Virus record (IMG/VR): IMGVR_UViG_3300009149_000062
Span: 1-45,988 of that record
Length of the DNA: 45,988 nucleotides
Source: a virus
Reading direction: 5' to 3' (one strand)
Below the pieces are notes generated by a model. The model made no database searches, was not told the origin of the DNA, and saw nothing but the letters and a program-made list of their open reading frames with translations. The position numbers were made by a program, and so were the translations under genes. Below are positions 661 through 16,581 of this stretch, piece after piece. Each line of letters opens with the position of its first letter. The first letter of the stretch is position 1.

Positions 661-681
661 AGAAGAGAAAAAGGAGGTAGA

Positions 682-1233: not shown

Positions 1234-1244
1234 AGGAGGAGAGG

Positions 1245-1676
1245 TTGAAAATCACTATAAATGGTTTCCTTCTTGACTTACGAGAAGGCGATGAAGTTCA
1301 GGTAAATCACAACTGGTGTGATAAGTGTGAGTGTTCTCACGAAGAGCTAACTCTTAAAAGAGGTAATAACACTATAGTGCGGGTCGGTGATGTTGTCATT
1401 CTTAATAGAGAGGATGAGCTTTATGGTGGAGTGGTATTAGATAAAGGGGGAAACCCCAAAGTTGAACACAAGTGGGTTGCGCATATAATTCCCAATGGTA
1501 AGAGGGGAATGACAGAGGACAAACGACACTATATTGGCTACTGCGGAACAGTATTGACTCAAGAACATCCCACAAAACTTGATAGAATAATCTTTACATC
1601 TGGAATACCATTTTTAGAAACAGAACGACTTTGCCCGGAATGTAAAAGGGTTTGGGAAGCAGAAAAAAAGTTGTAA
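1245..1676 (+). CDS. Putative zinc-binding hypothetical protein
   Basis: Protein of 143 residues starting at TTG 1245 behind AAAGGAGGAGAGG. Cysteine pairs CDKC (near residue 25, followed by C and H) and CPEC near the C-terminus (about residue 131) could bind zinc. The central part is beta-rich (VGDVVILNRED...GGVVLD). No known family was recognised. The stop TAA lies inside promoter copy 2. Function unknown; a nucleic-acid or protein-binding role is only a guess. Confidence 0.65.
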   Translation: MKITINGFLLDLREGDEVQVNHNWCDKCECSHEELTLKRGNNTIVRVGDVVILNREDELYGGVVLDKGGNPKVEHKWVAHIIPNGKRGMTEDKRHYIGYCGTVLTQEHPTKLDRIIFTSGIPFLETERLCPECKRVWEAEKKL

Positions 1677-1707
1677 CAATTTCAAGGATTTTCTTGTATA
1701 TTATAAT
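1671..1707 (+). promoter_or_regulatory. Conserved early promoter element, copy 2
   Basis: TTGTAACAATTT at 1671-1682 and TATAAT at 1702-1707, spacing 31. The spacer is of the CAAGGATTTTCTTG type, shared with the copies near 8382 and 9226 and different from the TCTCTTTTT type. It drives the small membrane protein at 1730. Confidence 0.8.
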
Positions 1708-1729
1708 AGAAGAGAAAAAGGAGGAAGAG

Positions 1730-1942
1730 ATGAAAAAATTACTACTGGGAGCATTAAAAATACAGGTACTTACAGTAGCGTTTATTATACTAAAATTATC
1801 AGGTCGAGTTACCTGGTCGTGGTTGTGGGTGTTGTCCCCACTATGGCAGCCACTTCTATTTATACTACTTATTATTATTGTCGTTGTAATAACAGCATCA
1901 ATTAATCTCAATCGTAATCTCAAAAGAGGAATATTGAAGTAA
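1730..1942 (+). CDS. Small two-helix membrane protein
   Basis: Protein of 70 residues. I choose ATG 1730 because it sits 5 nt after an AAAAGGAGG site and just after promoter copy 2; an in-frame upstream start at 1652 lies inside the previous gene and the promoter. Two hydrophobic segments (about residues 4-24 and 38-57) flank a short Trp-rich turn (WSWLWVL), and the C-terminus is basic (NRNLKRGILK). It is probably an inner-membrane protein. The function is unknown; interference with the host or superinfection is possible but not shown. Confidence 0.6.
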   Translation: MKKLLLGALKIQVLTVAFIILKLSGRVTWSWLWVLSPLWQPLLFILLIIIVVVITASINLNRNLKRGILK

Positions 1943-1943
1943 G

Positions 1944-2498
1944 ATGAAATTTCTATATCCTAGTAAGCCGACTCGAATATACAAAGTAACTATGATAGAC
2001 CGAGATTGGATTGTTCAAGTGAAGAAAGATGGTCATCGTGCGCTCTTATGTACGCACGATGAAAACCTCGACATATTCAATCGTTACGGGACATCTCTTA
2101 ATTCATCTCGTAAGTTTGATTGGAGTTGGCTATTAGATGTTCTACCACCGGATAGTCTAATTGATGGTGAACTTGTAGGAACCCGTCAAGCTAACCCACC
2201 GAACAAAATTGCAGTATGGGATATGCCAATATATAAAGCACGAGATTTAACAAATGTTCCGTACGGGGAAAGATATGCTTTATTGAGAAAAGTTTTATTA
2301 AATAAGAATAATATAGAACACGATGGAATGAAGTTACTTGTATTAAGAACATTACCTGTGAAAGACTATCTAAAGTTTTGGAACACCTTAGGACCGGAAG
2401 ATGAAGGAGTAGTTTTCAAGAACCCCAAAGCAACTTTAGATTGGGATTTATATAAGACAAGAAAGATTGTACAACAGTTAAAACTAAAAATTAGATAA
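1944..2498 (+). CDS. Minimal ATP-dependent ligase-like nucleotidyltransferase
   Basis: Protein of 184 residues with the signatures of the covalent nucleotidyltransferase superfamily (ATP-dependent DNA/RNA ligases and capping enzymes). Motif I is KKDG at residues 27-30 (K27 the likely adenylated lysine). Then come FNRYG near 46, DGELVG near 74 and EGVVFKNP near 154. A basic TRKIVQQLKLK at the C-terminus could supply motif V. It stops there, so the OB-fold domain of normal DNA ligases is absent. Typical phage ligases exceed 300 residues. It may be a minimal ligase or an RNA- or end-modifying enzyme. A full-length ligase is encoded at 4864-5997. Confidence 0.75.
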   Translation: MKFLYPSKPTRIYKVTMIDRDWIVQVKKDGHRALLCTHDENLDIFNRYGTSLNSSRKFDWSWLLDVLPPDSLIDGELVGTRQANPPNKIAVWDMPIYKARDLTNVPYGERYALLRKVLLNKNNIEHDGMKLLVLRTLPVKDYLKFWNTLGPEDEGVVFKNPKATLDWDLYKTRKIVQQLKLKIR

Positions 2499-2534
2499 GG
2501 AGTTGAAAAATAGAAGAAAATGAAAGGAGAATAA

Positions 2535-2774
2535 ATGAGATTTGATATAACAAGAGTTTTAGAGATAAGCAAAAAGATAGGAGAAAAATACGCTCGGGAA
2601 CTTAGCAAAGTAATGCAAAAGGAGAATGATGCACAAGAAGTTATCCAGATTTCTGCTAAATATAATTTTTATAAAGACATAAAGTTAAATCACGATTTAC
2701 TTTTTTACTTTCTTTTAATCGGATGTAAAGAGCGAGATTTTCGGAGTGGTGTTTTAATGAGTTATGGAGAATAG
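2535..2774 (+). CDS. Hypothetical protein
   Basis: Protein of 79 residues behind an AAAGGAG site 5 nt before ATG. It is predicted mostly helical: a charged first 45 residues, then a hydrophobic segment around LLFYFLLIGC, then a short tail. No family recognised. The hydrophobic segment is short for a membrane span. Confidence 0.5.
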   Translation: MRFDITRVLEISKKIGEKYARELSKVMQKENDAQEVIQISAKYNFYKDIKLNHDLLFYFLLIGCKERDFRSGVLMSYGE

Positions 2775-2792
2775 AATGGCTTGCAAACAGTA

Positions 2793-2903
2793 ATGGAACA
2801 ACTATTAGTTCTTGGGATAGCAATTGAGAAAGCGATATATTTAATGCCCCGGGAAATGTGGAAGACACTTCCGGGAGGTATGCCATACTTTTGTGTCTTA
2901 TGA
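2793..2903 (+). CDS. Possible 36-residue ORF coupled to the next gene
   Basis: ATG 2793 opens a 36-codon frame whose TGA (2901-2903) overlaps the ATG of the next gene as ATGA. That arrangement is used repeatedly for translational coupling in this genome. The peptide is hydrophobic at the start (MEQLLVLGIAIEKAIYL) and ends PYFCVL. No good ribosome binding site precedes it. The overlap is the main support. Confidence 0.35.
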   Translation: MEQLLVLGIAIEKAIYLMPREMWKTLPGGMPYFCVL

Positions 2904-3151
2904 AAAAGAAAAAGAAGAAAAGAAGAATACGAATTTCTAAAGATATTTGTATCATTTGGGATACGAAATATGATAAGAAGGATGTTCGGTTTGGAAGATT
3001 ACAAAAAAGAGATACAAACTTTTCAAGTAATCTCCGGGAGTATCCGATTACAGTCTCAAAGTATGAACTTATTTTAGGAGACCTTAAAGATAAAGAAACT
3101 GTTACACTACCTTATAAACTTGGACACTTTAGACAGTTAGAGATGCGTTAG
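2900..3151 (+). CDS. Basic hypothetical protein, truncated relative of the next two genes
   Basis: Protein of 83 residues from ATG 2900, beginning with a run of Lys/Arg. An in-frame GTG at 2858 is possible, but the ATGA overlap favours 2900. The C-terminal part (GDLKDKETVTLPYK) resembles GELTDETTITIPLDF in the gene ending at 3662. That suggests a third tandem member of the family that lacks the final helix and the V-D-x-L tail. Function unknown. Confidence 0.5.
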   Translation: MKKKKKKRRIRISKDICIIWDTKYDKKDVRFGRLQKRDTNFSSNLREYPITVSKYELILGDLKDKETVTLPYKLGHFRQLEMR

Positions 3152-3192
3152 TAGTTTACAAATTATTGGGGAATTTATGAAAAAGAAAATAC

Positions 3193-3267
3193 CGGGGTGT
3201 AGCTCAGTCAGGGCAGAGTACTCGGCCTGGAACCGAGGAGTCGTTGGTTCGAATCCAACCACCCCGA
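3193..3267 (+). tRNA. tRNA-Pro (anticodon TGG)
   Basis: A complete cloverleaf can be drawn. The acceptor CGGGGTG (3193-3199) pairs with CACCCCG (3260-3266). The D stem is GCTC/GAGT, the anticodon stem CTCGG/CCGAG has loop CCTGGAA, and the T arm is GTTGG-TTCGAAT-CCAAC (3243-3259). The discriminator is A (3267). C1-G72 with A73 is typical of bacterial tRNA-Pro. CCA is not encoded. Position 33 is C instead of the nearly universal U. It sits between small early genes, just before the start of one of them. Confidence 0.92.
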
Positions 3268-3287
3268 TTAAAGGATGTCTCGGGGAG

Positions 3288-3662
3288 ATTATAACGGACA
3301 ATATAAGAAGACATAGTTTTGTTGAGGAGAATAAAGAGAGTATACTCACTTGGATTATAACGGAAGACATAAAAGAAAAAGTCTTCCGTATAGGAACTAT
3401 TACATCTTTTAGCAATCTGTTTAAAAATATTATAATTGTTGTCTATGGGAATAGGTTTGGAATAATGATATTAAGAAATAGATTTGGTGGGGGGATTGTT
3501 AGTTCGAAGTGTGTGACTTCAAAATTATGCGAAATAACCTATGGTGAACTGACTGATGAAACTACTATTACAATACCGTTAGACTTTACTTACGAAAAAG
3601 ATAAACTAATAGAAGCCATTAATGAAGCTGTGATAATTCAAAATATAGTAGACGCATTATGA
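3288..3662 (+). CDS. Hypothetical early protein, tandem paralogue A, start uncertain
   Basis: About 124 residues. The frame is open back to ATG 3177, but that would translate through the tRNA. Aligning the shared YGNRFG motif with the next gene puts the expected start near 3282-3294. That is just after CTCGGGGAG (3279-3287), where only ATT, ATA and ACG are available. ATG 3465 is the first canonical in-frame start but would remove half the protein. The C-terminus is beta-rich then helical and ends IVDAL. Function unknown. The gene may use a non-canonical start or may have lost its start when the tRNA arrived. Confidence 0.45.
   Translation: MITDNIRRHSFVEENKESILTWIITEDIKEKVFRIGTITSFSNLFKNIIIVVYGNRFGIMILRNRFGGGIVSSKCVTSKLCEITYGELTDETTITIPLDFTYEKDKLIEAINEAVIIQNIVDAL
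3579..3629. repeat. 51-nt direct repeat, copy 1
   Basis: Identical to 3950-4000. It encodes the same LDFTYEKDKLIEAINEA segment near the C-termini of the two adjacent paralogues. Identity at all 51 bases, including third codon positions, points to recent duplication or gene conversion. Confidence 0.9.
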
Positions 3663-4033
3663 AAAAACATGTACTATGGTCGATACCAAAAGGAGTTGAA
3701 ATTTTGGAAACTTTAGCGGGGGACCTTTATTGGGTAGAGAGAGACACTTTTATGGGGGAGAGATTTTGGGTAGGAAAGATTGGCGCAACTCCTCATCCCT
3801 ATATGATTGTTCTTTTTGGAAACAGATTTGGAATGATGAAAATTAATGACAATATAAGATATTCTGCATTCTCATGGATAGTTAAATCTCCGACTATGTG
3901 TTCGATTCGACGCTACAGCGCTAATGTTAAGTGGATTATGGATTTACCATTAGACTTTACTTACGAAAAAGATAAACTAATAGAAGCCATTAATGAAGCT
4001 ATGGTAGTAGATACTGTTGTAGATTCACTGTAA
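3659..4033 (+). CDS. Hypothetical early protein, tandem paralogue B
   Basis: Protein of 124 residues whose ATG overlaps the stop of paralogue A (ATGA). It shares with that gene the FGNRFG motif in the middle and an identical 17-residue block before the C-terminus, ending VVDSL. The N-terminal half (IPKGVEILETLAGDLYWVERD) is Trp/Tyr-rich and beta-like. No catalytic motif was seen. Its stop TAA lies in promoter copy 3. Function unknown. Confidence 0.6.
   Translation: MKKHVLWSIPKGVEILETLAGDLYWVERDTFMGERFWVGKIGATPHPYMIVLFGNRFGMMKINDNIRYSAFSWIVKSPTMCSIRRYSANVKWIMDLPLDFTYEKDKLIEAINEAMVVDTVVDSL
3950..4000. repeat. 51-nt direct repeat, copy 2
   Basis: Identical to 3579-3629, offset by 371 nt, inside the paralogue at 3659-4033. 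Confidence 0.9.
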
Positions 4034-4064
4034 CAATTTCAGTCTCTTTTTTGTATATTGTAAT
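4028..4064 (+). promoter_or_regulatory. Conserved early promoter element, copy 3
   Basis: CTGTAACAATTT at 4028-4039 and TGTAAT at 4059-4064, spacing 31, with the CAGTCTCTTTTTTG spacer type. One change in each conserved block. It precedes the membrane protein at 4108. Confidence 0.7.
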
Positions 4065-4107
4065 AGAAGAACAACAAAGGACCTCACGAAATAGAACGGA
4101 GAAAGAA

Positions 4108-4326
4108 ATGTTTGTATTTGTGTTTTTGTTTGCTATGATTGTATTTTTCATAATCGATGTAGTTGGAGGATTTATCATTGACTTATTCTTTAAGAAGAAA
4201 GACGCCAAAGATAAAAGCCTAATGCAGTGTTTTTTTAGCCAGCGAGAAGGACGGGAGAAAGAGTGGCAGGAGGACTTGGAACAAGCTTTTCTCAGAGAAC
4301 AGAAACAAAAAGAAAAGAAGATGTAA
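4108..4326 (+). CDS. Small single-span membrane protein
   Basis: Protein of 72 residues. ATG 4108 is chosen because CGGAGAAAG lies just upstream; the longer frame from 4051 would start inside the promoter. The N-terminal 28 residues are strongly hydrophobic (MFVFVFLFAMIVFFIIDVVGG), with no positive charge before them. The rest is charged and probably cytoplasmic (Lys/Glu/Arg-rich helix). The stop TAA lies in promoter copy 4. No family recognised. Confidence 0.55.
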   Translation: MFVFVFLFAMIVFFIIDVVGGFIIDLFFKKKDAKDKSLMQCFFSQREGREKEWQEDLEQAFLREQKQKEKKM

Positions 4327-4357
4327 CAATATCAGTCTCTTTTTTGTATATTATAAC
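4321..4357 (+). promoter_or_regulatory. Conserved early promoter element, copy 4
   Basis: ATGTAACAATAT at 4321-4332 and TATAAC at 4352-4357, spacing 31, TCTCTTTTTTG spacer. Slightly degenerate in both blocks. It precedes the winged-helix gene at 4391. Confidence 0.65.
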
Positions 4358-4390
4358 AGTATAAAAACTAATAGAAAGGAGGGGAGAAAG

Positions 4391-4591
4391 ATGATTAAGA
4401 AAGAAGATGTTTATGCCGCAGTAAAAGAAGCAGATGGAACAATAACGGCTAAGGAGATAGCAGAAAAGTTTGGTGTTAAAAAAGCCGGTGTTTTTATGAA
4501 GATGAGAAAGCTCATGGATGAAGGACTTGTTGAGAAGGTAAAACCGGGCGTTTTTCAGATGGTTAAAACAGCCCCGAAAGAGAACGAATAA
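4391..4591 (+). CDS. Small winged-helix DNA-binding protein
   Basis: Protein of 66 residues behind GGAGGGGAG. The sequence follows a winged helix-turn-helix plan: helix 1 (KEDVYAAVKEADG), then TITAKEIAEKFGVKKAGVFMKMRKLMDEGLV with the recognition helix, then a wing (EKVKPGVFQMVK). It is the only clear small HTH protein in the early region and is flanked by promoter copies 4 and 5. That makes it a candidate regulator of the repeated TTGT-A-ACAA sites, though this is inference. Eukaryote-type or archaeal-type wHTH regulators have similar layouts. Confidence 0.7.
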   Translation: MIKKEDVYAAVKEADGTITAKEIAEKFGVKKAGVFMKMRKLMDEGLVEKVKPGVFQMVKTAPKENE

Positions 4592-4624
4592 ACTACCTAG
4601 TTTTGTTTGCACTTTTTTCACCAT

Positions 4625-4666
4625 AAAAAAGAGGTAAAAGTTTGTAACAATTTTGCCTCTTTTTTT
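4625..4666 (+). terminator. Hairpin terminator overlapping promoter copy 5
   Basis: AAAAAAGAGGTAAAA (4625-4639) can pair with TTTTGCCTCTTTTTT (4651-4665) with one G-U pair, leaving an 11-nt loop and a run of T. The loop and 3' arm are part of the promoter element, so termination of upstream transcripts and new initiation would share the same bases. Confidence 0.6.
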
Positions 4667-4678
4667 GTATATTATAAT
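4642..4678 (+). promoter_or_regulatory. Conserved early promoter element, copy 5
   Basis: TTGTAACAATTT at 4642-4653 and TATAAT at 4673-4678, spacing 31. A perfect match in both blocks. It drives the genes from 4694 onward, including DNA ligase. Confidence 0.8.
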
Positions 4679-4693
4679 AGAAGAAAGGAGCAT

Positions 4694-4867
4694 ATGAAAT
4701 ACAAGTATAATAATAAGAAAGAAAGAAAAGCAAACGGCCATAACGCCCAAATGTTTCAGTCTCAAATCGAAGACGCTCTCAAATATGGTAACGAAACAAG
4801 AGCCCAAGTGTTATACAAAAGAGGAATGAAAAGAGGGTATAATTTAACTCTAAAGGAGAATGAATGA
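4694..4867 (+). CDS. Small basic hypothetical protein
   Basis: Protein of 57 residues from ATG 4694, which follows AAAGGAG closely; the longer frame from 4607 runs through the promoter. It is rich in Lys, Arg, Asn and Tyr, with a helical centre (MFQSQIEDALKYGNETRAQVLYKRGMKRG, in two parts). The TGA overlaps the ligase ATG as ATGA, so translation is probably coupled. Function unknown. Confidence 0.5.
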   Translation: MKYKYNNKKERKANGHNAQMFQSQIEDALKYGNETRAQVLYKRGMKRGYNLTLKENE

Positions 4868-5997
4868 AATATCCTAAATTGTATAAACAGACATCTACGG
4901 GTAAAGTGCAGGAGTGGGAGATTTGGACCGAAGGAAATGAAATTCATGAGTTGTATGGTCAAAGAGATGGAAAGAAACAACATCGTATTGATGTAGTAAA
5001 GAGCGGCAAGAATATAGGTCGGGCAAATGAAACTACGCCCGAACAACAGGCCGACTTTGAAGCTAACGCAAAATGGACTAAGAAACAGTCAAAAGACTAT
5101 CGTGAAGATATTGCAGAAATTGCAAAGGCCAGAACGACCTCCAGCTTTGGCGGATTCTTTCCTATGTTAGCACACAAATATGTTCAGCATAAAGAAAAGA
5201 TAACCTTTCCGTGTTATGTTCAGCCAAAGCTCGACGGAATAAGATGCATTAGTGTCTGTAAAGATGATAAAGTAACGCTTTGGTTCAGGTCCGGAAAGCC
5301 TGTAAAGACTATGTCTCATATTCAAGAAGCATTAGAAAAGATAATGCAAGACGGCGAAATATGGGACGGCGAGTTGTACATTCACAACAACGACTTTAAT
5401 AAGATAGGCGGCAATATAAGACGGGACAAACATACTGACTTTGAAGCCTCCAAAAAAGTTGAGTATCATATTTACGATTACCCGAGAATTAAAAATGATG
5501 TAGAATTATTAACAGAAAAAGACAACTATAAAGAAAGAAGAGTAGCGTTTGAAAATAGAAAAATCGAGTACCCGTTAGTAAATGTCTTAACAGAAGAAAT
5601 AGAGAATGAAAAAGAGATGTTAGAAGAGCACGTTGTTTATGTAACAGCTGGATATGAAGGGATAATGTTAAGAAATAAAAATTCAGCATATGTTCAAAAA
5701 CGCAGTTATGATTTGTTAAAGTATAAAGAATTTGAAGAGGATGAATTCAAAATTGTGGGATACGAAGAAGGTCGCGGAATCCTACAAAATGCAGTGGGCG
5801 CGTTTGTATGCGCGCTCTCAGATGGTAATACTTTCAATGTAAAGTTAAAAGGGAAAGATGTTACTGAACTCCTTAAAGAGTATTTCAAACACCCGGAAGT
5901 CTTTATGGGAAAAGAACTGACAGTACAATATCAAGGAATGTCGAAAGATAATGTCCCAAGATTTCCAGTAGGTAAAATAGTGAGATTTGATAAATAG
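4864..5997 (+). CDS. ATP-dependent DNA ligase
   Basis: Protein of 377 residues. Residues 1-90 form an extra N-terminal region resembling a small nucleic-acid-binding module (WGR-like, tentative). The adenylation domain follows, with motif I QPKLDGIR (K122 the expected adenylated lysine), FRSGK, DGELY, EGIMLRN near 263 and LLKYKEF near 281. A C-terminal OB-fold-like segment (FKIVGYEEGRGI to FPVGKIVRF) completes a T7-type ligase. It seals nicks during phage DNA replication and repair. Expressed from promoter copy 5 with the small gene before it. Confidence 0.93.
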   Translation: MKYPKLYKQTSTGKVQEWEIWTEGNEIHELYGQRDGKKQHRIDVVKSGKNIGRANETTPEQQADFEANAKWTKKQSKDYREDIAEIAKARTTSSFGGFFPMLAHKYVQHKEKITFPCYVQPKLDGIRCISVCKDDKVTLWFRSGKPVKTMSHIQEALEKIMQDGEIWDGELYIHNNDFNKIGGNIRRDKHTDFEASKKVEYHIYDYPRIKNDVELLTEKDNYKERRVAFENRKIEYPLVNVLTEEIENEKEMLEEHVVYVTAGYEGIMLRNKNSAYVQKRSYDLLKYKEFEEDEFKIVGYEEGRGILQNAVGAFVCALSDGNTFNVKLKGKDVTELLKEYFKHPEVFMGKELTVQYQGMSKDNVPRFPVGKIVRFDK

Positions 5998-6008
5998 GGA
6001 GGAAAAGG

Positions 6009-6359
6009 ATGAAGGTAAAGAAAGGTATGATAAAGAAAGTTGTAACAATTACAGGTAAAGCATATATACAAAATTCTACTGAAAAGCCAGTTATGTTAAC
6101 TCGTTTTTATGGTAGAGCAAAAGTTCGTGTTGCGGATGCTTTATTCGGAGAATTGCGTAGAATTCTGCCATTAGCTGTTCCGGGGGTTAGTGATGAAAGT
6201 TTATCCGGAGGGTACAAGGGCTATAACCCAGTAGCAGTTGACGGGTCAAGCCGCGGAACTGGGATAACAGCATCAATAGAGGAGGCATCCTCTTATGATG
6301 TAAAAATAACAGTAGAAATCGGTGTTCCTGTAGCCGATGAAATATTAAGAAAACTATGA
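6009..6359 (+). CDS. Hypothetical early protein
   Basis: Protein of 116 residues with an AGGGAGG site before ATG 6009. The N-terminus is basic, the middle contains VRVADALFGELRRILPLAVPG, and the rest is glycine/serine-rich and beta-like. It ends ADEILRKL. No family recognised. A TTGTAACAATTA sequence at 6040-6051 lies inside the coding region without a matching -10. Confidence 0.5.
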   Translation: MKVKKGMIKKVVTITGKAYIQNSTEKPVMLTRFYGRAKVRVADALFGELRRILPLAVPGVSDESLSGGYKGYNPVAVDGSSRGTGITASIEEASSYDVKITVEIGVPVADEILRKL

Positions 6360-6396
6360 AAAAAGAGACAGATTTTTGTCAATTTTGTCTCTTTTT
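6360..6396 (+). terminator. Hairpin terminator overlapping promoter copy 6
   Basis: AAAAAGAGACA (6360-6370) pairs perfectly with TGTCTCTTTTT (6386-6396), followed by a short pyrimidine run. It sits immediately after the stop at 6359 and overlaps the promoter element, as at 4625. Confidence 0.6.
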
Positions 6397-6410
6397 CTGT
6401 ATATTATAAT
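6374..6410 (+). promoter_or_regulatory. Conserved early promoter element, copy 6 (degenerate upstream block)
   Basis: TTTTGTCAATTT at 6374-6385 in place of TTGTAACAATTT, and TATAAT at 6405-6410, spacing 31. The spacer and the -10 region match copy 1. It drives the MoxR-type ATPase. Confidence 0.7.
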
Positions 6411-6430
6411 AGAAAGAAAAAGGAGGTTAA

Positions 6431-7615
6431 ATGAACAAAGGCGGCGTAGTTGAAGTAAATCACAAACAAACCGAAGAACATCTCAGGGTCTGTTATAAGA
6501 CAAAACTGCCGTTATTTATATGGGGAACAACAGGTATCGGGAAGTCTGATACTGTCAAAAAAGTTGCGGAAGACCTCAATGTAGAGGTTGTAGATGTTAG
6601 AATATCGCAACTTGACCCAAGCGATTTGAGAGGACTTCCAAAATACACTGACGCCGGAGATACAACAAAATGGCTTCCGCCAGATTGGCTTCCAAAAGAA
6701 AACCCTGAATTACCGAGAATTGAAGCGGAGCAGAAGGCTAAGATTGAGGAAGCAGAAAAAACTCTAAAAGGTGAAGAACTTGCCAGCGTGAAATCTGAGG
6801 CAAGAGTAACTATAAATGGAGCACGCTCAAGAGGAATACTCTTTTTAGATGAACTAAACCTTGCGCCACCTTCAATACAGGCGAGCGCATACCAGCTAAT
6901 ACTTGACCGCAAAATTGGTAGCTACAATCTCCCAGAAGGTTGGATGGTTGTAGGAGCGGGTAATCGAGCAGAAGACCGAGCAAATGTCTTTGCAATGGCC
7001 GCACCTTTAAGAAATAGATTACTTCAGATTCAGCTTAAAGTTCCAACTGTTGAAGAGTGGACGAACTGGGCCCTTGAACATGAGGTCGATGTTGACATAG
7101 TTGCCTATCTCAGTTGGAAGTCTGATCATCTTCACACTTTAGAAAAAGACGAAGATGCATCAGTTTTTGCGACCCCAAGAAGTTGGTATTTTGCAAGTCG
7201 TGTAATCAAGGCCGGTGGAGCAGAAAGGAAACAGCTAGTTGGGAGTTGTGTAGGCTACGGAATAGCGTTAGAACTTGAAGCCTTTAAAAAGCTTCACAAG
7301 AAGATTAAACTAAGTGAAATCATTGAGAATCCGAAGTTGGTAAGAGAAATTAAAGCTGTAGATGTCAAGTATGTTCTCGTGTCCGCTTTGAGTAGCAAGT
7401 ATATGGCAAGCCGGGAAATGTTGGTTCCAATTTTGAATGTTGCAAATCATATGGATGCAGAATTTGGAATTCTTCTTTCGCGGATGCTAAAAAGAGGTAA
7501 CAAAAATTTTAAAGCCGACTTCAAAAAGTTGGCTAGAAAAGAAGACAAAATTGTAAAAGCCTTCATCGAGAAGTATTACAAATTTATCTCTGACGACGAC
7601 ATAAAAGAAGCGTAG
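6431..7615 (+). CDS. MoxR-family AAA+ ATPase
   Basis: Protein of 394 residues. The Walker A is GTTGIGKS at 32-39. Walker B ILFLDELN lies near 135, and a sensor-1-like VVGAGNR is near 173 followed by RNRLLQI. This matches the AAA_5/MoxR branch, whose members act as chaperone ATPases with a VWA-domain partner. A charged insert (about residues 88-125) separates Walker A and B. The C-terminal 150 residues are helical. A VWA protein with MIDAS-type motifs follows at 9281, so the pair probably works together. The target is not known. Confidence 0.9.
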   Translation: MNKGGVVEVNHKQTEEHLRVCYKTKLPLFIWGTTGIGKSDTVKKVAEDLNVEVVDVRISQLDPSDLRGLPKYTDAGDTTKWLPPDWLPKENPELPRIEAEQKAKIEEAEKTLKGEELASVKSEARVTINGARSRGILFLDELNLAPPSIQASAYQLILDRKIGSYNLPEGWMVVGAGNRAEDRANVFAMAAPLRNRLLQIQLKVPTVEEWTNWALEHEVDVDIVAYLSWKSDHLHTLEKDEDASVFATPRSWYFASRVIKAGGAERKQLVGSCVGYGIALELEAFKKLHKKIKLSEIIENPKLVREIKAVDVKYVLVSALSSKYMASREMLVPILNVANHMDAEFGILLSRMLKRGNKNFKADFKKLARKEDKIVKAFIEKYYKFISDDDIKEA

Positions 7616-7623
7616 GAGGCGTA

Positions 7624-8376
7624 ATGAAAAGTTTTACTGAAATACATAACGAGTTTCACGAGAAGATTAAAAAGATTGGTAATGAGGTTGAAGACCTTAA
7701 GCAACAGGAGGAAATACTTGCTGGTGAATATGCTAAAGCGATTGATAATGAGTGGAGAACAAACCCAAAATTAGAAGCGTTAAAGGCCTTGATGAATTTA
7801 ACCGTTCCCGCGAAATATAAAGTACAATACGCTTGGAATACTGCAACTAAAGGAATGGGAAAAATGCATCCTGAAGTAATTTCAACAAACCAACCCCATA
7901 ATGAACTTTGTATTTCAGCAAGAGGCATTGGATATAGGCGTTGCACAACAACGGGACAATATAAGAACGTTCCAATAGCCATAATTAGCTCTGTAGTGTC
8001 TTATCGAAGTAACATTGAGCCCTATATCCGAAAATCCTACAAGAAGAAGTTTAATGGGTTGATGGATGAGTTGACAAAAATAGATTTTGAAAAGGTTAAA
8101 AATCAAATAAAGCCACAAGTAAAAATTAATTTTGAATTTATAGACGGCAATACCAAACGTACTGTCGTGAGCATGAATAAAACAGGGTATAAGAGTGGGT
8201 GGCACGATTTTTATTTTTCAGACCATAATAATTTTTTTCATATACTAAATCACATAGATGAAATTTCAGAAAAAGCAAAAGAATTGATAAACATATATAA
8301 CGGTGGGAGCCTTTCCAAACTTCTTAAGGTGTTAGAGGCGTTTTCGGTCTCCCAAAAAATTGTTGATAATCTCTAA
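7624..8376 (+). CDS. Hypothetical protein, MoxR-VWA module paralogue 1
   Basis: Protein of 250 residues behind a GGAGGCGTA site, starting 9 nt after the MoxR stop. It begins with a coiled-coil-like segment (about residues 5-40). Conserved blocks shared with the gene at 8441 are NEWRTNPKL, then WN.ATKGMGKMHPE, then CISARGIGYR, then YIRKSYK.KFN. It ends in SQKIVDNL. The CISARGIGYR and GMGKMHPE blocks look like a binding or catalytic surface, but no known family was recognised. Position between the ATPase and the VWA gene suggests a substrate or adaptor. Confidence 0.7.
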   Translation: MKSFTEIHNEFHEKIKKIGNEVEDLKQQEEILAGEYAKAIDNEWRTNPKLEALKALMNLTVPAKYKVQYAWNTATKGMGKMHPEVISTNQPHNELCISARGIGYRRCTTTGQYKNVPIAIISSVVSYRSNIEPYIRKSYKKKFNGLMDELTKIDFEKVKNQIKPQVKINFEFIDGNTKRTVVSMNKTGYKSGWHDFYFSDHNNFFHILNHIDEISEKAKELINIYNGGSLSKLLKVLEAFSVSQKIVDNL

Positions 8377-8381
8377 AAAAG

Positions 8382-8420
8382 TTGTAACAATTTTAAGGAT
8401 TTTCTTGTATATATTATAAT
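8382..8420 (+). promoter_or_regulatory. Conserved early promoter element, copy 7
   Basis: TTGTAACAATTT at 8382-8393 and TATAAT at 8415-8420. The spacing is 33 because of an extra AT. AAGGATTTTC spacer type. The preceding 30 nt, including the end of the gene, are nearly identical to those before copy 8. Confidence 0.75.
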
Positions 8421-8440
8421 AGAAAAGAAAGGAGATTAAA

Positions 8441-9220
8441 TTGACCTTAAAAGAACAATATGAACAGTATATAGAGGCGAAAAAGACTATCAGCGAAAAG
8501 ATAACAACCTTAGAAGATGAAAGAACCATAAAAGAAAAAGATTATGATAAAGCGATTGTTAATGAGTGGAGAACAAACCCAAAATTAATTGCTTTAGATA
8601 AATTTCGACACTCGGATAAAAGTCTGGGAGCACTACTCTCGGAAGTTGAGAGCCTTTGGAATGCTGCAACTAAAGGAATGGGAAAAATGCATCCTGAAGA
8701 AATTACGATGTGCGAGGATGCATGGCTTTGTATCTCAGCAAGAGGAATCGGATACCGAATGCATAGAGATAAAGTAGGAAAATACAGAGAGGTTGGTATA
8801 GACACTATTAAATTTGTGTTAAATCACCCAGGTACAATTAGAAGGTATATTAGAAAGTCATACAGAGAGAAATTTAACTGCTTGATAGAGGAGATGCGTA
8901 AAATTGATTTCTCAAATTTACCTAAAAATTTTGATTCGATTCACCAGGAGGTTAAGGTAACTATCATTCAAAAAGAGTATTGGAACGGCAAGATATCAAG
9001 TGAAGAAATCGTAAATCCGAGTCTTACCAGAACGGATTTGGGTTCTTTATATTTTTCAAATAATGAAGACTTACCTTATATTCTTGATAATATTGATGCT
9101 GTTTTGGAAGGAGTTAAGGAATATGAAGAAAAAGAGCGTGTCTCAAGAGTCTCTTGGCTCAAACTTATCTCTATATTAAGGCCATTTGCGGCTTCCCAAA
9201 AAATTGTTGATAATCTCTAA
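8441..9220 (+). CDS. Hypothetical protein, MoxR-VWA module paralogue 2
   Basis: Protein of 259 residues from TTG 8441 behind AAAGGAG. It is a diverged tandem duplicate of the gene at 7624, with the same order of blocks (NEWRTNPKL, WNAATKGMGKMHPE, CISARGIGYR, YIRKSY) and the same SQKIVDNL ending. The N-terminal 40 residues are a charged coiled coil. Each copy has its own promoter, so dosage or timing may differ. Function unknown. Confidence 0.7.
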   Translation: MTLKEQYEQYIEAKKTISEKITTLEDERTIKEKDYDKAIVNEWRTNPKLIALDKFRHSDKSLGALLSEVESLWNAATKGMGKMHPEEITMCEDAWLCISARGIGYRMHRDKVGKYREVGIDTIKFVLNHPGTIRRYIRKSYREKFNCLIEEMRKIDFSNLPKNFDSIHQEVKVTIIQKEYWNGKISSEEIVNPSLTRTDLGSLYFSNNEDLPYILDNIDAVLEGVKEYEEKERVSRVSWLKLISILRPFAASQKIVDNL

Positions 9221-9225
9221 AAAAG

Positions 9226-9262
9226 TTGTAACAATTTCAAGGATTTTCTTGTATATTATAAT
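9226..9262 (+). promoter_or_regulatory. Conserved early promoter element, copy 8
   Basis: TTGTAACAATTT at 9226-9237 and TATAAT at 9257-9262, spacing 31, AAGGATTTTC spacer type. It drives the VWA gene at 9281. Confidence 0.8.
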
Positions 9263-9280
9263 AGAAGAAAGGAGGAGTAT

Positions 9281-10498
9281 ATGTTTAAGATAGATACTAA
9301 GATGAATACACAAGAGCGGATTATCAAGTCAAAAGTTTTACTACAGCAATCGCATCCGTTTTTTGCATATATACTCTCCCAGATGGCAATAAAAGAAGAA
9401 GAATCAATAGGAACTATGGGTGTTGATAAGAGAGGAAATCTATTCTACGGAAAGAAGTTTGTTGATTCCTTAAGTGTACCTGAGATGAAGGGGGTTCTGT
9501 GCCACGAGTCAATGCATGTTGCGCTTCAGCATTTTGTAAGACTCGGTAAAAAGTCAAAGGACCGCTGGAATATAGCGGCGGATATTGTTATCAATAATAT
9601 GATAATTCAAAACGGATTATCTCTTCCTAAGGGCGGGTTTATTCCAAAGAATGACCAAATAACTGTTGGGGGAGTTAAAATTGAGAAAATAAGTGATAAG
9701 ACAGCAAACGAAGTTTACAAGTTATTGCCTGAGGTAAAGAATAAAGGGTTTGATATTCATATATATGTTGACGGTGGGGCTGCAGGTAAGGGAGCGAGTA
9801 AAGGAGAAGGCAAAGAAGGTACAGGTGGAATTAGTATAGTAGTACCAACGGGAGATGCGAAAGATATAAAAGATGATAAGAATTGGGAAGATATCATAAT
9901 TGAGGCGTGGACACACGCTCAATTAAAAGGAAATACTCCTGCTGGTATGCAAAGACTAGTGGATGCAATATTAAAACCTCAAATCCCATGGTACGCGATA
10001 CTTCGTGAATTCATTACACGAGAACTTCCTGTCGATTGGAATTGGGGGTATCCATCTAAGAGAGCAATAGCTACGGGCATATATCTGCCGGGAGTAAAGC
10101 GGGAGAACCTTGAAATAGTTACTACTATTGATACAAGCGGTAGTATATCTAAGAAGATACTAACTCGCTTTGTATCGGAGTTAATTGCTATAGTTAACTC
10201 TTCAGCAAACTGTAGAGCAACAGTTCTAATCGGAGATGCGAAAATACACGAGATAATACCTGTCGAAAATGGAAATCTGAAGAAACTTCGTGAAGCGGCT
10301 TGGAAAGGCGGCGGTGGGACAGATCATAGACCCTTTTATGAGTGGATTAAAAAGAACAAGCCAAACTGTAAAGTGGTTATAAATCTAACAGACGGCTATA
10401 CAACTTATCCGGGTAGTGAAATAGCAAAGACTCTTTGGATTTTAGTTGATAGCACTGCTGAACCACCATTCGGTAAAGTAATAAGGATAAAAGAATGA
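9281..10498 (+). CDS. VWA-like metallopeptidase-type protein (DUF2201-like), MoxR partner
   Basis: Protein of 405 residues. The N-terminal domain carries a zinc-protease-like HESMH (residues 75-79). A Gly/Lys-rich linker lies around 165-185. The C-terminal VWA-like domain has DTSGS near 284, GGGTD near 345 and LTDGY near 371, a MIDAS-type set. This layout matches the family of putative metal-dependent peptidases with VWA-like domains that are usually paired with MoxR ATPases. Its partner is at 6431. Whether HESMH is catalytic or only structural cannot be told from sequence. Confidence 0.85.
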   Translation: MFKIDTKMNTQERIIKSKVLLQQSHPFFAYILSQMAIKEEESIGTMGVDKRGNLFYGKKFVDSLSVPEMKGVLCHESMHVALQHFVRLGKKSKDRWNIAADIVINNMIIQNGLSLPKGGFIPKNDQITVGGVKIEKISDKTANEVYKLLPEVKNKGFDIHIYVDGGAAGKGASKGEGKEGTGGISIVVPTGDAKDIKDDKNWEDIIIEAWTHAQLKGNTPAGMQRLVDAILKPQIPWYAILREFITRELPVDWNWGYPSKRAIATGIYLPGVKRENLEIVTTIDTSGSISKKILTRFVSELIAIVNSSANCRATVLIGDAKIHEIIPVENGNLKKLREAAWKGGGGTDHRPFYEWIKKNKPNCKVVINLTDGYTTYPGSEIAKTLWILVDSTAEPPFGKVIRIKE

Positions 10499-10905
10499 AA
10501 GAAATAAAACAATCTGCTGGGGAAGTTCAAAAATACTTTATAGAATATTACGAAAGAATTATAAAAGAATTGCTATCAAAGATACCAGAGAAGACTAGTG
10601 CAAAGAAGAATATAGAGAGTGTAAAGAACAAGAAGGATATTACAATTAAGATAAATGACCATAAAATGTCAAAGAAAGGAATTGCTAAAGGAGAAAATTA
10701 TGTAGTTAAGTTCGGACCTTCCTTTGTGGATGGTCATCTTTGGATAGAAGATTTATCAAAAATTAATCTTTTCGATAAAAAGGAGGTGCTTAAAACCTTA
10801 AAAGAACTAAAAGAAAAGTACGAGAAAAGATATAAGAAGCTGGATAAGTACATCGAGGAGTTAAAAGATCTCATCATTGTTCACAGAACACTTGATTCTC
10901 TGTAG
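10495..10905 (+). CDS. Hypothetical helical protein, MoxR-VWA module
   Basis: Protein of 136 residues whose ATG overlaps the VWA stop (ATGA), which implies coupled translation. The N-terminal 50 residues are helical and basic. A beta segment follows (ITIKINDHKMSKKGIAKG, then HLWIEDL), and then a long Lys/Glu coiled coil. The end (RTLDSL) resembles the IVDNL tails of the two paralogues upstream, and the preceding beta-then-helix plan is similar. It may be a reduced relative of them. No known family. Confidence 0.6.
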   Translation: MKEIKQSAGEVQKYFIEYYERIIKELLSKIPEKTSAKKNIESVKNKKDITIKINDHKMSKKGIAKGENYVVKFGPSFVDGHLWIEDLSKINLFDKKEVLKTLKELKEKYEKRYKKLDKYIEELKDLIIVHRTLDSL

Positions 10906-11191: not shown

Positions 11192-11485
11192 ATGATAACT
11201 ATTAGTGCTCACCTTTTAATTACAAAGAAGTGTAGTAACGGAGATAGGTGTGTTCATCCCGACGGTCCCATCTTGCCGCTGTCCGAGTTTCACAATAACA
11301 AGAGAAGTAAGAATGGTAAGGCTAACATCTGTAAGAGGTGTAACAGTGCTCATATGAAAGAGTATTATAGCACTCAGTGGGGAAAGACAATTGTTAAGAA
11401 GGCGGTTTCAAAATATTCAAAAACAGAAAAAGGAAAAAATGCAATGAAGAGGTATTATGAAAAAAAGAAAAATGAAAGACATTAA
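11192..11485 (+). CDS. Zinc-finger protein related to endonuclease VII-type N-termini
   Basis: Protein of 97 residues from ATG 11192; an upstream start at 11171 would lie inside the preceding gene. C15 and C21 with CKRC near residue 48 frame the pattern C...C...[21 protein letters not shown]. That resembles the treble-clef zinc element at the start of phage HNH / recombination endonuclease VII-like proteins. The nuclease core itself is missing: after residue 60 only a basic helical tail remains. It is probably a nucleic-acid-binding remnant or a stand-alone zinc protein. Confidence 0.55.
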
Positions 11486-12029
11486 TTATAATATTGCTTC
11501 TTTAAAAGAACCGAGTACTGAGGCTACAAAAGAAGAAGCTACAAAGATATGGAAAGATCTTAAACAAGTTTTAGCAAATCATAAAGATGGTGTTGGGTTG
11601 TCTGCTGTTCAGTTGAATCCCTCAGTTTACAAGAGGGTTGCTATGATTAAAACCATTTTTAACGAGTATCATTTGTTAAATCCAAGAATTGTTAAGATGG
11701 ACGATCAATTTCTTTTCCTGGGAGAAGGGTGCCTTTCCCTTCCGGGAGTTCGAAAAAACACAGTAAGATACAAACATATAGTTGTTGAGGATGATAATCT
11801 AGGTAAAGTATGCTTTGATTCCCACATAGACCCGTTAGTTGTTGTGGTCGCCATCCAGCACGAGATAGATCACTTGAATGGTATTCTCTTTACTGAAAGA
11901 GTTCAAAAGGCTCCAATAATAGAATCAAAGACAAAGAAGGTAGGAAGAAACGACCCCTGCCCTTGTGGCAGTGGTAAGAAATATAAAAAGTGTTGTATGA
12001 GAAAGAAAAGAAATGACAGGACCATATAG
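11457..12029 (+). CDS. def: Peptide deformylase with C-terminal SEC-C zinc motif
   Basis: Protein of 190 residues. The three deformylase motifs are present: GVGLSAVQ (45-52), EGCLSLPG (90-97) and QHEIDHLNG (134-142). Metal ligands would be C92, H135 and H139, with E136 catalytic. Residues 163-180 add a SecA-type SEC-C motif with C168, C170, C179 and C180. Deformylase removes the formyl group from nascent proteins. The SEC-C tail is not part of standard bacterial or phage deformylases and could tether the enzyme. The start overlaps the previous gene by 29 nt; ATG 11472 is an alternative. Confidence 0.92.
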
Positions 12030-12352: not shown

Positions 12353-13654
12353 ATGGTAAATAGTCTTACACCAAAACAAGTAGTTAAGGAGCTTGATAAA
12401 TTTATTATTGGGCAAGACCTTGCAAAGAGGAAGGTTGCTATTGCTTTGAGAAATAGATTTCGTCGACAACAAGTTGACACTAAAATGAAAGATGAGATAA
12501 TGCCTAACAATATAATTATGATTGGACCCACAGGCGTAGGCAAGACAGAAATCGCTAGGCGACTTGCGGGCTTGACAGCCTCTCCTTTTATCAAAGCCGA
12601 GGCTTCAAAATTTACAGAAGTTGGATATGTTGGAAGGGATGTTGAGTCTATAATTAGGGATTTGATGGAAATAGCCGTGACCATGGTTAAAAAGGAAAAG
12701 AGAGAACTCGTAAAAGAAAAGGCTCTAAAAGGAGCTGAAGAAAGACTTTTAAATATTCTTCTCCCTCAGCCCAAGAAAATTAAAAAGGAAGACCCCCGTT
12801 TGAGAAAAGATTTACAAAAGAGATTTCTCGAAGGGAAGTTAGATACCGCCGTTATAGAAATAGAGAAAAAAGAGACATTCCCAGGGATTACTGCTATTCC
12901 TCTTGGAATTGGTTTTGAAAGTCTTCTCCAAGACCTTGGAAGTAGAGAACACTTTCAAACTAAGAAGGTTACTGTTTATGAAGCTTTTCAAATTTTTGTA
13001 AAAGAAGAAACGGACAAGTTAGTAGATAAAGAAAAAGTAGTCGAAGAAGCAAAACAGCTAACTGAAAACTTTGGAATCGTTTTTATAGATGAAATTGATA
13101 AAGTCGCCGGGCGAGAAAGTAAAGGTGGCCCAGACGTTTCAAGAAGTGGCGTTCAACGTGATTTACTTCCTATCATAGAAGGTTCTTCTGTAATGACGAA
13201 ATATGGATTTGTAAAAACTGATCACATCCTCTTTATAGCAGCGGGCGCATTTCATATGTCAAAACCTTCAGATCTTTTACCGGAGATGCAAGGGCGCTTT
13301 CCTATTAGAGTTCAGTTAGATAATTTAACTGAAAAGGATTTTCAGAGAATATTAGTTGAGCCTGAAAATGCTCTTACAAAACAATATGAGAGTCTCTTTG
13401 CAACAGAAAAAGAGAAAATAACTTTTACAAAAAAGGCTATATGTAAACTTGCCTACTACGCCGCTCGTGCAAATGAGAAGACCGAAAACATCGGGGCGCG
13501 CAGACTACAAACAGTGATGTCTACGTTATTAGAAGATTATCTTTTTGAAATGCCAGATGTAATCTACGGGGAAATTAAAATAACAGAAAAGAACGTTGTT
13601 AGTAAGTTAAAGGATCTCATAGAAGATGAAAATCTTTCTAAATATATTTTGTAA
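12353..13654 (+). CDS. hslU: HslU, ATPase subunit of the HslVU protease
   Basis: Protein of 433 residues, close to full bacterial length (about 440). Walker A is GPTGVGKT (58-65) and the pore loop GYVG is at 91-94. An intermediate domain covers roughly 110-230. Walker B is VFIDEID near 244, and the sensor-2 region has GARRLQTVM. The C-terminal LSKYIL resembles the HslU tail that inserts into HslV. All key elements are intact. HslU unfolds proteins for the HslV peptidase; no hslV is present in the window, so this copy may use the host HslV or act alone. Good AGGAGG site before ATG. Confidence 0.95.
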
Positions 13655-13960: not shown

Positions 13961-14488
13961 CTGATATACCTTACAGCTGATACTCATTTTAACCATAAGT
14001 TGATGTCTGATATGAGAGGATTTAAATCTACTAATGAAATGGACGCATCGATTATCGAGATATGGAATAACATAATTCATACCGGCGATGAGGTTTACCA
14101 TCTCGGCGACTTTGGATTTGGAAAAGAGAAAGAAATTTCAAAATACAGATCGCAACTTAATGGGAAAGTTAATTTGATTTTGGGAAACCATGATTACAAG
14201 AATAGTATTGATAAATTGGGGAAGCTATTTACTTCAGTTTCAGACCTTAAAACAATAAAGTACAATCATGAGAGGATAATATTATGTCATTATGCTATGA
14301 GAGTTTGGTCTGCTTCTCATCACAACAGTTATCACCTATTTGGGCACTCTCATGGCTTGTTGAATACATATGGAAAGTCATTTGATATAGGCTGGGATGT
14401 GTGGGGGAAGCCCCTTAACATATCTGAAGTGATTGATGAATTTAATAAACTTCCAGATAACTTTAACTTTATAAAGGAGGAAGAATGA
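13961..14488 (+). CDS. Metallophosphoesterase with CTG start
   Basis: Protein of 175 residues. The conserved N-terminus IYLTADTHFNHK lies upstream of the first TTG (14000). The frame opens after a TAA at 13940 and contains no ATG/GTG/TTG before the core motif. CTG 13961 falls exactly where the initiator Met is expected, 6 nt after GAGGAGG. The calcineurin-like metal motifs are all present: DTH (7-9), GDF, GNHD, an H in LCHYA and GHSH. The family hydrolyses phosphomonoesters, diesters or cyclic nucleotides; substrate unknown. The stop overlaps the next start. Confidence 0.85.
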   Translation: MIYLTADTHFNHKLMSDMRGFKSTNEMDASIIEIWNNIIHTGDEVYHLGDFGFGKEKEISKYRSQLNGKVNLILGNHDYKNSIDKLGKLFTSVSDLKTIKYNHERIILCHYAMRVWSASHHNSYHLFGHSHGLLNTYGKSFDIGWDVWGKPLNISEVIDEFNKLPDNFNFIKEEE

Positions 14489-14907
14489 GCGGAGTATATT
14501 TAGCTCCAGAAGTAGATGCGATTGTGAGCGATCTCGCTCCCAATCTCGATGTAAATATTGTTTCCGTATTTGAAGAGAAGAAAAAGAGTACGTGGTCTGC
14601 AAAAGTATCTAAAGCTGACCCCGTTTTTAATCTCTTAACAAAATTTGAAGTAATTTTGTACGTTTGGGATACAGCATGGAATAGTTTTAATGACAATCAA
14701 AGAATGGCTCTCATATACCACGAGTTGTGCCATATAGATGTTTCTACAAATAAGAAAGGAGAGAAAGTTATAAAACTTTTACCACACCCCGTTGAGGAAT
14801 TTCCCGAGGTTGTAAGGAATTATGGATTATGGAATGCTCCTCTGAGACGCATGGGAGACGCCGTAGAACAAGCAATAGCCGATACTGCTAAAAAGGACGC
14901 AAAATGA
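14485..14907 (+). CDS. Putative phage metallopeptidase (HELCH)
   Basis: Protein of 140 residues behind AAAGGAGGAAG; its ATG overlaps the previous stop (ATGA). A zinc-protease motif HELCH is at 79-83. Around it are YVWDTAWNSFNDNQRMALIYHE and a later HPVEEFPEVVRNYGLW, as in the phage-associated putative metallopeptidase family. Downstream acidic and helical residues may supply the third ligand. The target is unknown. It sits between the phosphoesterase and the heptose genes with 4-nt overlaps on both sides. Confidence 0.8.
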   Translation: MSGVYLAPEVDAIVSDLAPNLDVNIVSVFEEKKKSTWSAKVSKADPVFNLLTKFEVILYVWDTAWNSFNDNQRMALIYHELCHIDVSTNKKGEKVIKLLPHPVEEFPEVVRNYGLWNAPLRRMGDAVEQAIADTAKKDAK

Positions 14908-15467
14908 ATCGCGCAATCTTTCTAGACCGCGACGGCACTATTATAAAAGATAAAAACTATTTAGGTGACCCAGCCGGGGTAGACCTGCTTTCAAACGCTG
15001 GAGAGGCTTTGTATCTTCTTCAAAATGCCGGCTTTAAACTTATAGTGATTACAAATCAATCAGGTATTGCTCGCGGTATCTTTACAAAAGAAGACCTTTA
15101 TCGTGTCCATAAGAAGTTGCGTTATCTCCTTCTTAGTCGTTACGAAGTCAAGATAGATGGGATTTACTACAGCCCTGATCTTCCGGGAGAATCAGAAACC
15201 CGGAAACCTTCTCCCAATTTAGCACTGCGGGCGTGTAAAAAATTTGAAATTACTCCTTGGAGTTCTTTTGTTATTGGAAATTCCCAAGAGGACATTCAAA
15301 TGGGAAAAAATCTCGGCGCCGTTACTGTATTACTAGATAAGAACGGTTTAGATATTTCAAAGTCCAAACCCAACTATGTTTGTAAAGACCTTTATAGCGC
15401 CGCTCAAACTCTTCTGCGCCGCTTTCAAGTAGAGCAAGAATTTGCTCCAAAGTTTGTCGAAAAATGA
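14904..15467 (+). CDS. gmhB: Heptose-bisphosphate phosphatase-like HAD protein (GmhB)
   Basis: Protein of 187 residues with the histidinol-phosphatase/GmhB HAD pattern: FLDRDGTI (D8 nucleophile, D10 acid/base), VITNQSG near 50, then RKPSP near 95 and GNSQEDIQMG near 115. It would remove the C7 phosphate from D-glycero-D-manno-heptose-1,7-bisphosphate. The zinc-binding Cys loop of E. coli GmhB is missing (YYSPDLPGESETRKPSP has no Cys), as in zinc-free members. hldA and gmhA follow, which supports the heptose role. Confidence 0.87.
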   Translation: MNRAIFLDRDGTIIKDKNYLGDPAGVDLLSNAGEALYLLQNAGFKLIVITNQSGIARGIFTKEDLYRVHKKLRYLLLSRYEVKIDGIYYSPDLPGESETRKPSPNLALRACKKFEITPWSSFVIGNSQEDIQMGKNLGAVTVLLDKNGLDISKSKPNYVCKDLYSAAQTLLRRFQVEQEFAPKFVEK

Positions 15468-16399
15468 ATCTTAAAAGAACTATTGATATTTTACAAAATT
15501 CAAAGAAGAAGTTTTTAGTCGTCGGCGACTTGATGTTGGACGAATATGTCTTTAGTGATGTAGATAGAATATCCCCAGAGGCTCCCGTTCCGGTCGCCAA
15601 AGTCCGAGAGCGTAAATTCATGCTCGGAGGATGTGGAAACGTACAAAAGAATCTTCGAACTCTTGGAGGAGAAGTTTTTACTATAGCGGTTGTTGGTCAA
15701 GATATTGCGGGTAAACGTTTGAGTAGGATGATGACGTCGGATCTTGTTTTTGACTTTGGAAGAAAAACGTCTATTAAAAGAAGAATAATTGCACACTCCC
15801 AGCAGCTGTTGAGGATAGATGAAGAAACTTCGAGTAAGTTATCCGTTCAAAAAGAGCAAGAGATTATTAGAAAAATAAAAAAGTACATTGATAAAGTAGA
15901 TGTTGTTGTTCTTTCTGATTATGCTAAAGGCGTGCTTACCGATGATGTTTTACGCTTTGTAATATCTCAATGTAACGAGAGAGGTGTTCCTATCGTATTA
16001 GATCCTAAAAGAGAAGATTACTCCGCCTATCGTGGGTCTATCCTCGTTACACCCAACGAAAAAGAGGCGTTCTTAGTAAGTAATACTGTTGATACAGAAT
16101 TAGCTTGTCGTTTTATATCAGAAAATTTTAATATAAATCAAGTACTCATTACTCGAGGCGAAGATGGTATGACTTTTTTAGACGGACAAAAGATTTATGA
16201 CATCTCAACCAAAGCTGAATACGTTTACAATGTTACAGGTGCGGGTGACACGGTAGTTGCCCTTATGTCACTCGGAATTGCAAATAACGCCGACATGATT
16301 GATTGTGTACACTTGGCTAATATTGCCGCTAGTATAGTTATCGAAAAAGTAGGTACGGTTGCCCCTTCGTGGGATGAAATTTTAAGAAGGGTAGAATGA
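15464..16399 (+). CDS. hldA: Heptose-7-phosphate kinase (HldA-type, HldE kinase domain)
   Basis: Protein of 311 residues, matching the N-terminal kinase domain of HldE without the C-terminal nucleotidyltransferase domain. PfkB/ribokinase features are VVGDLMLDEYV near the start, then SPEAPVPVAKV, then LGGCGNVQKNL near 51 and VTPNEKE near 194. The anion hole and catalytic base are in TGAGDTVV near 260. It phosphorylates heptose-7-phosphate at C1. The ATG overlaps the gmhB stop, and its own stop overlaps the next ATG. Confidence 0.92.
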   Translation: MNLKRTIDILQNSKKKFLVVGDLMLDEYVFSDVDRISPEAPVPVAKVRERKFMLGGCGNVQKNLRTLGGEVFTIAVVGQDIAGKRLSRMMTSDLVFDFGRKTSIKRRIIAHSQQLLRIDEETSSKLSVQKEQEIIRKIKKYIDKVDVVVLSDYAKGVLTDDVLRFVISQCNERGVPIVLDPKREDYSAYRGSILVTPNEKEAFLVSNTVDTELACRFISENFNINQVLITRGEDGMTFLDGQKIYDISTKAEYVYNVTGAGDTVVALMSLGIANNADMIDCVHLANIAASIVIEKVGTVAPSWDEILRRVE

Positions 16400-16581
16400 A
16401 AATAAAAAGTGCTTTATTTACAATTGGAGGGGACCCGCATATTGCTTCTGCACTAGATTGTTTCATAGCACGCGTAGGTTGGGAAAATATTAAGGAGATA
16501 GTTCCAACCATTAGTTGGATAATATTTTTCTATGAAGTAAAGGAGAACAATGATCAAGACACAAATCAAAAAAATAGTTAA
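16396..16581 (+). CDS. Small hypothetical protein between hldA and gmhA
   Basis: Protein of 61 residues with AAGGGTAG before its ATG, which overlaps the hldA stop (ATGA). Its 3' end overlaps gmhA by 32 nt. Sequence: LFTIGGDPHIASALDCFIAR near the start, a hydrophobic SWIIFFYEV and a polar tail. No family recognised. It is not the missing nucleotidyltransferase (HldC), being too short and without an HxGH motif. Confidence 0.5.
   Translation: MKIKSALFTIGGDPHIASALDCFIARVGWENIKEIVPTISWIIFFYEVKENNDQDTNQKNS

Follow-up and report, generated by a model that had tools for sequence, protein, structure and literature searches.

Two orphan paralogues lie between the genes of an N4 gp24/gp25-type MoxR-VWA pair in a virus contig and are possibly its client or adaptor

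What might two unplaced genes be doing between the halves of a viral MoxR-VWA pair? The question is raised by a linear 46-kb virus contig (IMG/VR record IMGVR_UViG_3300009149_000062), analysed here as one stretch of 45,988 nucleotides, which we call the window. A MoxR gene and a VWA gene lie on one strand, MoxR first, with a 1.67-kb slot between them that is filled by two genes, P1 and P2. The original prediction, made from the letters alone, had described this module as a candidate undescribed system. Its gene order was recovered in full, i.e., five plus-strand open reading frames (ORFs) of 136–405 aa at the positions given there, with repeats before MoxR, P2 and the VWA gene (Table 1). For the small 136-aa protein that closes the module, no family above cut-off was found in Pfam, PHROGs or NCBIfam.

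Table 1. Features of the MoxR-VWA module and their positions in the window
Feature	Position	Strand	Basis or remark
Promoter-like repeat, 5' of MoxR	6395..6412	+	0 mismatches to TTNTGTATATTATAATAG
MoxR-type AAA+ ATPase, N4 gp24 type, 394 aa	6431..7615	+	phrog_1297 2e-87, PF07728 above cut-off
P1, orphan paralogue, 250 aa	7624..8376	+	Ribosome-binding site overlapping MoxR stop
Promoter-like repeat, 5' of P2	8405..8422	+	1 mismatch to TTNTGTATATTATAATAG
P2, orphan paralogue, 259 aa	8441..9220	+	TTG start
Promoter-like repeat, 5' of VWA gene	9247..9264	+	0-1 mismatch to TTNTGTATATTATAATAG
DUF2201_N zincin + DUF2201 VWA protein, N4 gp25 type, 405 aa	9281..10498	+	Pfam, phrog_1314
Small charged, probably helical protein, 136 aa	10495..10905	+	Start overlaps VWA stop

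The identity of the two flanking genes is clear. The MoxR protein matches phrog_1297 (2e-87), has both Walker motifs intact (A, GTTGIGKS at 32; B, LFLDE at 137) and carries GNR at 177. The VWA protein is a member of phrog_1314 (PHROGs, 5.5e-84), is assigned by Pfam to DUF2201_N (PF13203, 3e-38) and DUF2201 (PF09967, 7e-24), and carries HESMHVALQH (75), the MIDAS motif DTSGS (284), GGGT (344) and TDG (370). Its HExxHxxxxH and MIDAS residues are intact, and HExxH and D-S-G-S are invariant across five aligned phage VWA proteins. The predicted MoxR/VWA pair is therefore confirmed by MoxR Walker motifs, a partner with zincin and MIDAS VWA domains, and a shared strand and order. The two families, phrog_1297 and phrog_1314, are those of N4 gp24 and gp25, and tblastn found relatives of the MoxR protein in 829 phage records and of the VWA protein in 688. 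In jumbo phages, too, MoxR has been described as paired with a vWA protein that carries a metallopeptidase domain at its N-terminus; a role in virion assembly was proposed there, with an archaeal virus tail cited as precedent (Iyer et al. 2021, PMC7824862). Given the N4 gp24/gp25 relatives and that publication, the pair itself is not an undescribed system; P1 and P2, by contrast, are unmatched in the databases searched. We found no paper giving an experimental function for N4-type gp24/gp25 pairs.

The annotation of the VWA partner deserves comment. Both phrog_1314 and N4 gp25 (NC_008720, 11164-12306) are labelled HNH endonuclease, as are the proteins of many phage records, whereas the window member has DUF2201 metallopeptidase and VWA domains and no HNH domain was found in it with Pfam. 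For the window protein the label is not borne out, and so common a label misleads annotation of this partner.

P1 and P2 are tandem paralogues in the predicted range of 250–260 residues (250 and 259 aa), with 38% identity over 264 columns (BLASTP, E 5e-48). They have in common the blocks NEWRTNPKL, ATKGMGKMHPE, CISARGIGYR, YIRKSY and a C-terminal SQKIVDNL, and the two blocks singled out earlier, GMGKMHPE and CISARGIGYR, are indeed identical in both. Against 38% identity for the proteins, the 3' ends of the two genes with their downstream promoter regions agree at 86 of 94 nt (91%), as would be expected had a P gene and its downstream promoter been duplicated as a unit. The simplest history that this suggests is duplication of such a unit in an ancestral MoxR-P-promoter-VWA operon. 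Codon choice is also shared, with identical codons at 31/31 shared residues in three tracts and at 34/66 elsewhere, a contrast that is no test of significance since the tracts were chosen post hoc after inspection of the data; of all 97 shared residues in the alignment, 65 have identical codons, compared with 41.8 expected from codon use. Such clustering fits gene conversion after duplication, with two retained copies, and might also arise from constraint on the nucleotide sequence.

Neither paralogue can be placed in a family, as had been anticipated. Profile searches of Pfam, PHROGs, NCBIfam and PADLOC yielded no match above threshold (for PADLOC, no family at E 0.1), and the PDB sequence profile search gave nothing at E 1. 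Homologues were not found in phage records (tblastn), in 14 records of MoxR-VWA viruses, in 398 genomes from the phylum of a Clostridiaceae genome, in IMG/VR (scans with P2, with the P1/P2 alignment and with a DNA pattern) or in GTDB (pattern scan), the pattern scans relying on short exact peptide matches that distant homologues may escape. Among plasmids no homologue was judged real, a Mesorhizobium plasmid match to P2 (E 0.01, 37% coverage) being put down to chance. The best hits of the 398-genome search, L179 and L181 (E 1.5e-4 and 0.008 per genome), are likewise judged to be chance, about 400 genomes having been searched; the matched region looks by eye like a ThiF/TcdA-like protein and falls outside all conserved blocks of P1 and P2. 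An ORF 5' of MoxR in locus L012 (7560-8417), compared with P1 and P2, was also rejected as a homologue (E 0.28). The search for close relatives of the virus, which used the major capsid, the sheath and the promoter repeat, yielded a single contig of 17.8 kb (L172), with 55% capsid identity and neither MoxR nor P genes. The two AlphaFold models, built from an input alignment of two sequences, have a mean pLDDT of 47 and 43, and hint at a long helix at the N-terminus, helices at the C-terminus and, around CISARGIGYR, a beta hairpin; a BFVD structure search with them gave a best E of 0.28, which is meaningless at this model confidence.

To see what other MoxR-VWA pairs have in the slot, we surveyed the best-scoring loci that surround relatives of the VWA protein, 80 from IMG/VR and 80 from cellular genomes, which are not a random sample. 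Among these best-scoring IMG/VR loci, 38 of the 67 same-strand viral pairs had an ORF of 100 aa or more in the slot, and 22 of the 67 had no ORF in it at all; among the best-scoring cellular loci, 59 of 70 pairs were no more than 300 bp apart. With VWA proteins clustered at 60% identity, a slot gene was present in 17/35 viral vs 4/37 cellular clusters (Fisher p 6e-4). Third genes between viral MoxR and VWA genes thus recur (38/67 pairs), which supports the module layout. The 38 occupied slots held 19 DUF3150-like proteins, a family assigned through one member above the Pfam cut-off, 12 Nmad5 proteins, of which 8 match, and 7 others. Among annotated phages the slot is empty (S-TIM54, Vibrio phage D472), holds small ORFs (N4, phiCB2047-B, nACB1) or is filled by a 210-aa and a 199-aa protein (EK8).

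In length and location P1 and P2 resemble the DUF3150 and Nmad5 occupants, and they could be very divergent members of either family with the same role; the sole local hhalign match to Nmad5 covers the C-terminal block of both. That match has an E of 0.31, however, and is indistinguishable from chance. Neither Nmad5 (PF18757) nor DUF3150 (PF11348; hhalign E 0.28) is matched in Pfam at E 1, and the hhalign probability against these slot families is 0.2%, so that we regard such membership as very improbable. P1 and P2 look like a duplicated slot occupant with no sequence homology to the other occupants.

Occupants differ in how they are kept. The 12 MoxR proteins accompanied by Nmad5 form one clade of 12 in the MoxR tree, and therefore this occupant has been kept by descent. 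Nmad5 is a predicted nucleotide-modification domain, here found between MoxR and VWA in a single viral clade (IMG/VR loci L018-L081); in a Dhillonvirus, mutation of nmad5 allows escape from Tmn defence (PMC11846954). Homing-endonuclease-type genes also sit in the slot, in L009 (phrog_3339), L019 (a NUMOD3 protein and a methylase) and L043 (HNH_3), so the slot takes cargo besides stable partners. P1 and P2 may then be unrelated, moron-like cargo in a hotspot between MoxR and VWA, transcribed from promoters of their own and functionally independent of the pair. Besides the homing-endonuclease-type genes, clear cargo is seen in L082, whose slot holds a DUF7487/TnsA-like protein. Slot contents also differ among the nearest relatives: FastTree trees place the window in a clade with L012 and L013 (support 0.96-0.99), and of these three viruses L012 has a different, 119-aa ORF in the slot and L013 has nothing there. 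The stability of Nmad5 by descent counts against cargo, and the transcription signals of the module cut both ways.

Allowing up to three mismatches, TTNTGTATATTATAATAG has 11 matches in the window against 0.48 expected. Eight have 0-1 mismatch, all on the plus strand (645, 1692, 4049, 4342, 4663, 6395, 8405 and 9247), and these close copies are confined to 0.6–9.3 kb; the structural genes lack the repeat. A palindrome, TTGTAACAA, lies 5' of most of the eight copies (645-9264), and repeat and palindrome together are possibly an early-promoter class with its operator. Since the repeat is missing from the structural genes, we infer that the module may be expressed early in infection, as had been proposed. 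P2 and the VWA gene each have their own promoter, in keeping with cargo. P1, on the other hand, has none after MoxR: the gap holds TAGGAGGCGTAATG only, with no promoter of the repeat class, and the ribosome-binding site of P1 overlaps the MoxR stop. No consensus terminator was found on the plus strand between the module genes, so read-through across them is likely. On balance we give cargo a real but minority chance.

The same signals bear on a further explanation, in which P1 and P2 are host-takeover or counter-defence proteins that were duplicated and diversified against host variants, with the pair as expression context only. Tandem duplication, strong divergence outside short conserved blocks and a promoter class limited to the non-structural 0.6–9.3 kb all agree with it, and orphans are common among such genes. 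P1 and P2 nevertheless match no PADLOC model and no known anti-defence family, and we consider this explanation improbable. Of the roles named in the original prediction, that of substrate, adaptor or effector is putative, and action on host machinery found no support.

MoxR hexamers act together with VWA proteins in the remodelling of specific complexes, and the genes for the clients often lie next to them. NorQ/NorD and CoxD/CoxE are MoxR-VWA systems with the client encoded beside the pair. Rubisco activases are another such system (PMC4660213). Because clients often neighbour known pairs, P1 is coupled to MoxR, the slot recurs in viruses and its Nmad5 occupant is kept by descent, we tentatively prefer an N4 gp24/gp25-type remodelling pair whose slot holds, in the duplicated orphans P1 and P2, a dedicated client or adaptor. 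The MoxR hexamer would spend ATP to remodel the client, guided by the MIDAS of the VWA protein, and the zincin domain of the latter may cut it. P1 and P2 would be that client, or an adaptor choosing it, and might bind each other by the helices predicted at their N-termini. Against a client or adaptor, no homologue of P1 or P2 was found that would show retention beside the pair, their sequences do not connect them with DUF3150 or Nmad5, 22/67 viral slots are empty, the slots of L012 and L013 differ, and the models reach only pLDDT 47 and 43. A client or adaptor is accordingly ranked first with hotspot cargo close behind, and nothing separates the two decisively.

Several neighbouring features were recorded in the window. 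The record is probably a myovirus fragment, with a sheath that matches Mycobacterium phages and a major head protein. About 1.4 kb 3' of the module lies a complete HslU (12353-13654; TIGR00390, 548.7 bits vs a cut-off of 362.45) that keeps the C-terminal YIL; no HslV-like N-terminus was found among the window ORFs, and this HslU might work with host HslV. It also matches phrog_5534, an AAA protein of which adjoins MoxR in Schitovirus EK8. The window also encodes a peptide deformylase (11457-12029) whose C-terminus carries a SEC-C metal-binding motif, and a second putative metallopeptidase (14485-14907, PF18894). A HAD phosphatase, a PfkB kinase and a SIS isomerase in a row (14904-17092), an odd set for a phage, resemble gmhB-hldE(kinase)-gmhA of heptose synthesis. 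The start of the ORF called at 3177-3662 is doubtful because a tRNA-Pro (TGG, 3193-3267) overlaps it.

The MoxR-VWA pair is known; what is new is its context, a viral slot that often holds a third gene and here holds the orphan P1/P2 pair. N4-type gp24/gp25 pairs are present in hundreds of phage records, and a slot gene that proved to be client or adaptor would give this orphan machine a partner open to experiment. More broadly, and in our view less probably than the client or adaptor reading here, viral MoxR-zincin/VWA sets may be three-part machines with a swappable third part, a client or specificity subunit, doubled in the window. Phages would then re-aim one chaperone/protease engine by swapping the middle gene (DUF3150, Nmad5 or the P1/P2 family).

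Among known systems, N4 gp24/gp25 shares both families, their order and their strand with the window, but its slot holds only a 70-aa ORF where the window has two paralogues of 250-259 aa. The jumbo phage pair has the same MoxR and metallopeptidase-vWA make-up, although third genes between the halves are not mentioned in the available excerpt of PMC7824862. Viral MoxR-Nmad5-VWA and MoxR-DUF3150-VWA arrays (IMG/VR L015-L091) do have the slot filled by a third gene (about 220-290 aa); unlike P1/P2 it is single-copy, and it bears no sequence relation to them. RavA-ViaA and cellular MoxR-VWA systems (PMC3893208) resemble the module in their MoxR AAA+ ATPase and VWA cofactor with chaperone-like action, RavA-ViaA being likened here without sequence comparison, whereas cellular DUF2201 pairs are mostly adjacent and lack a third gene.
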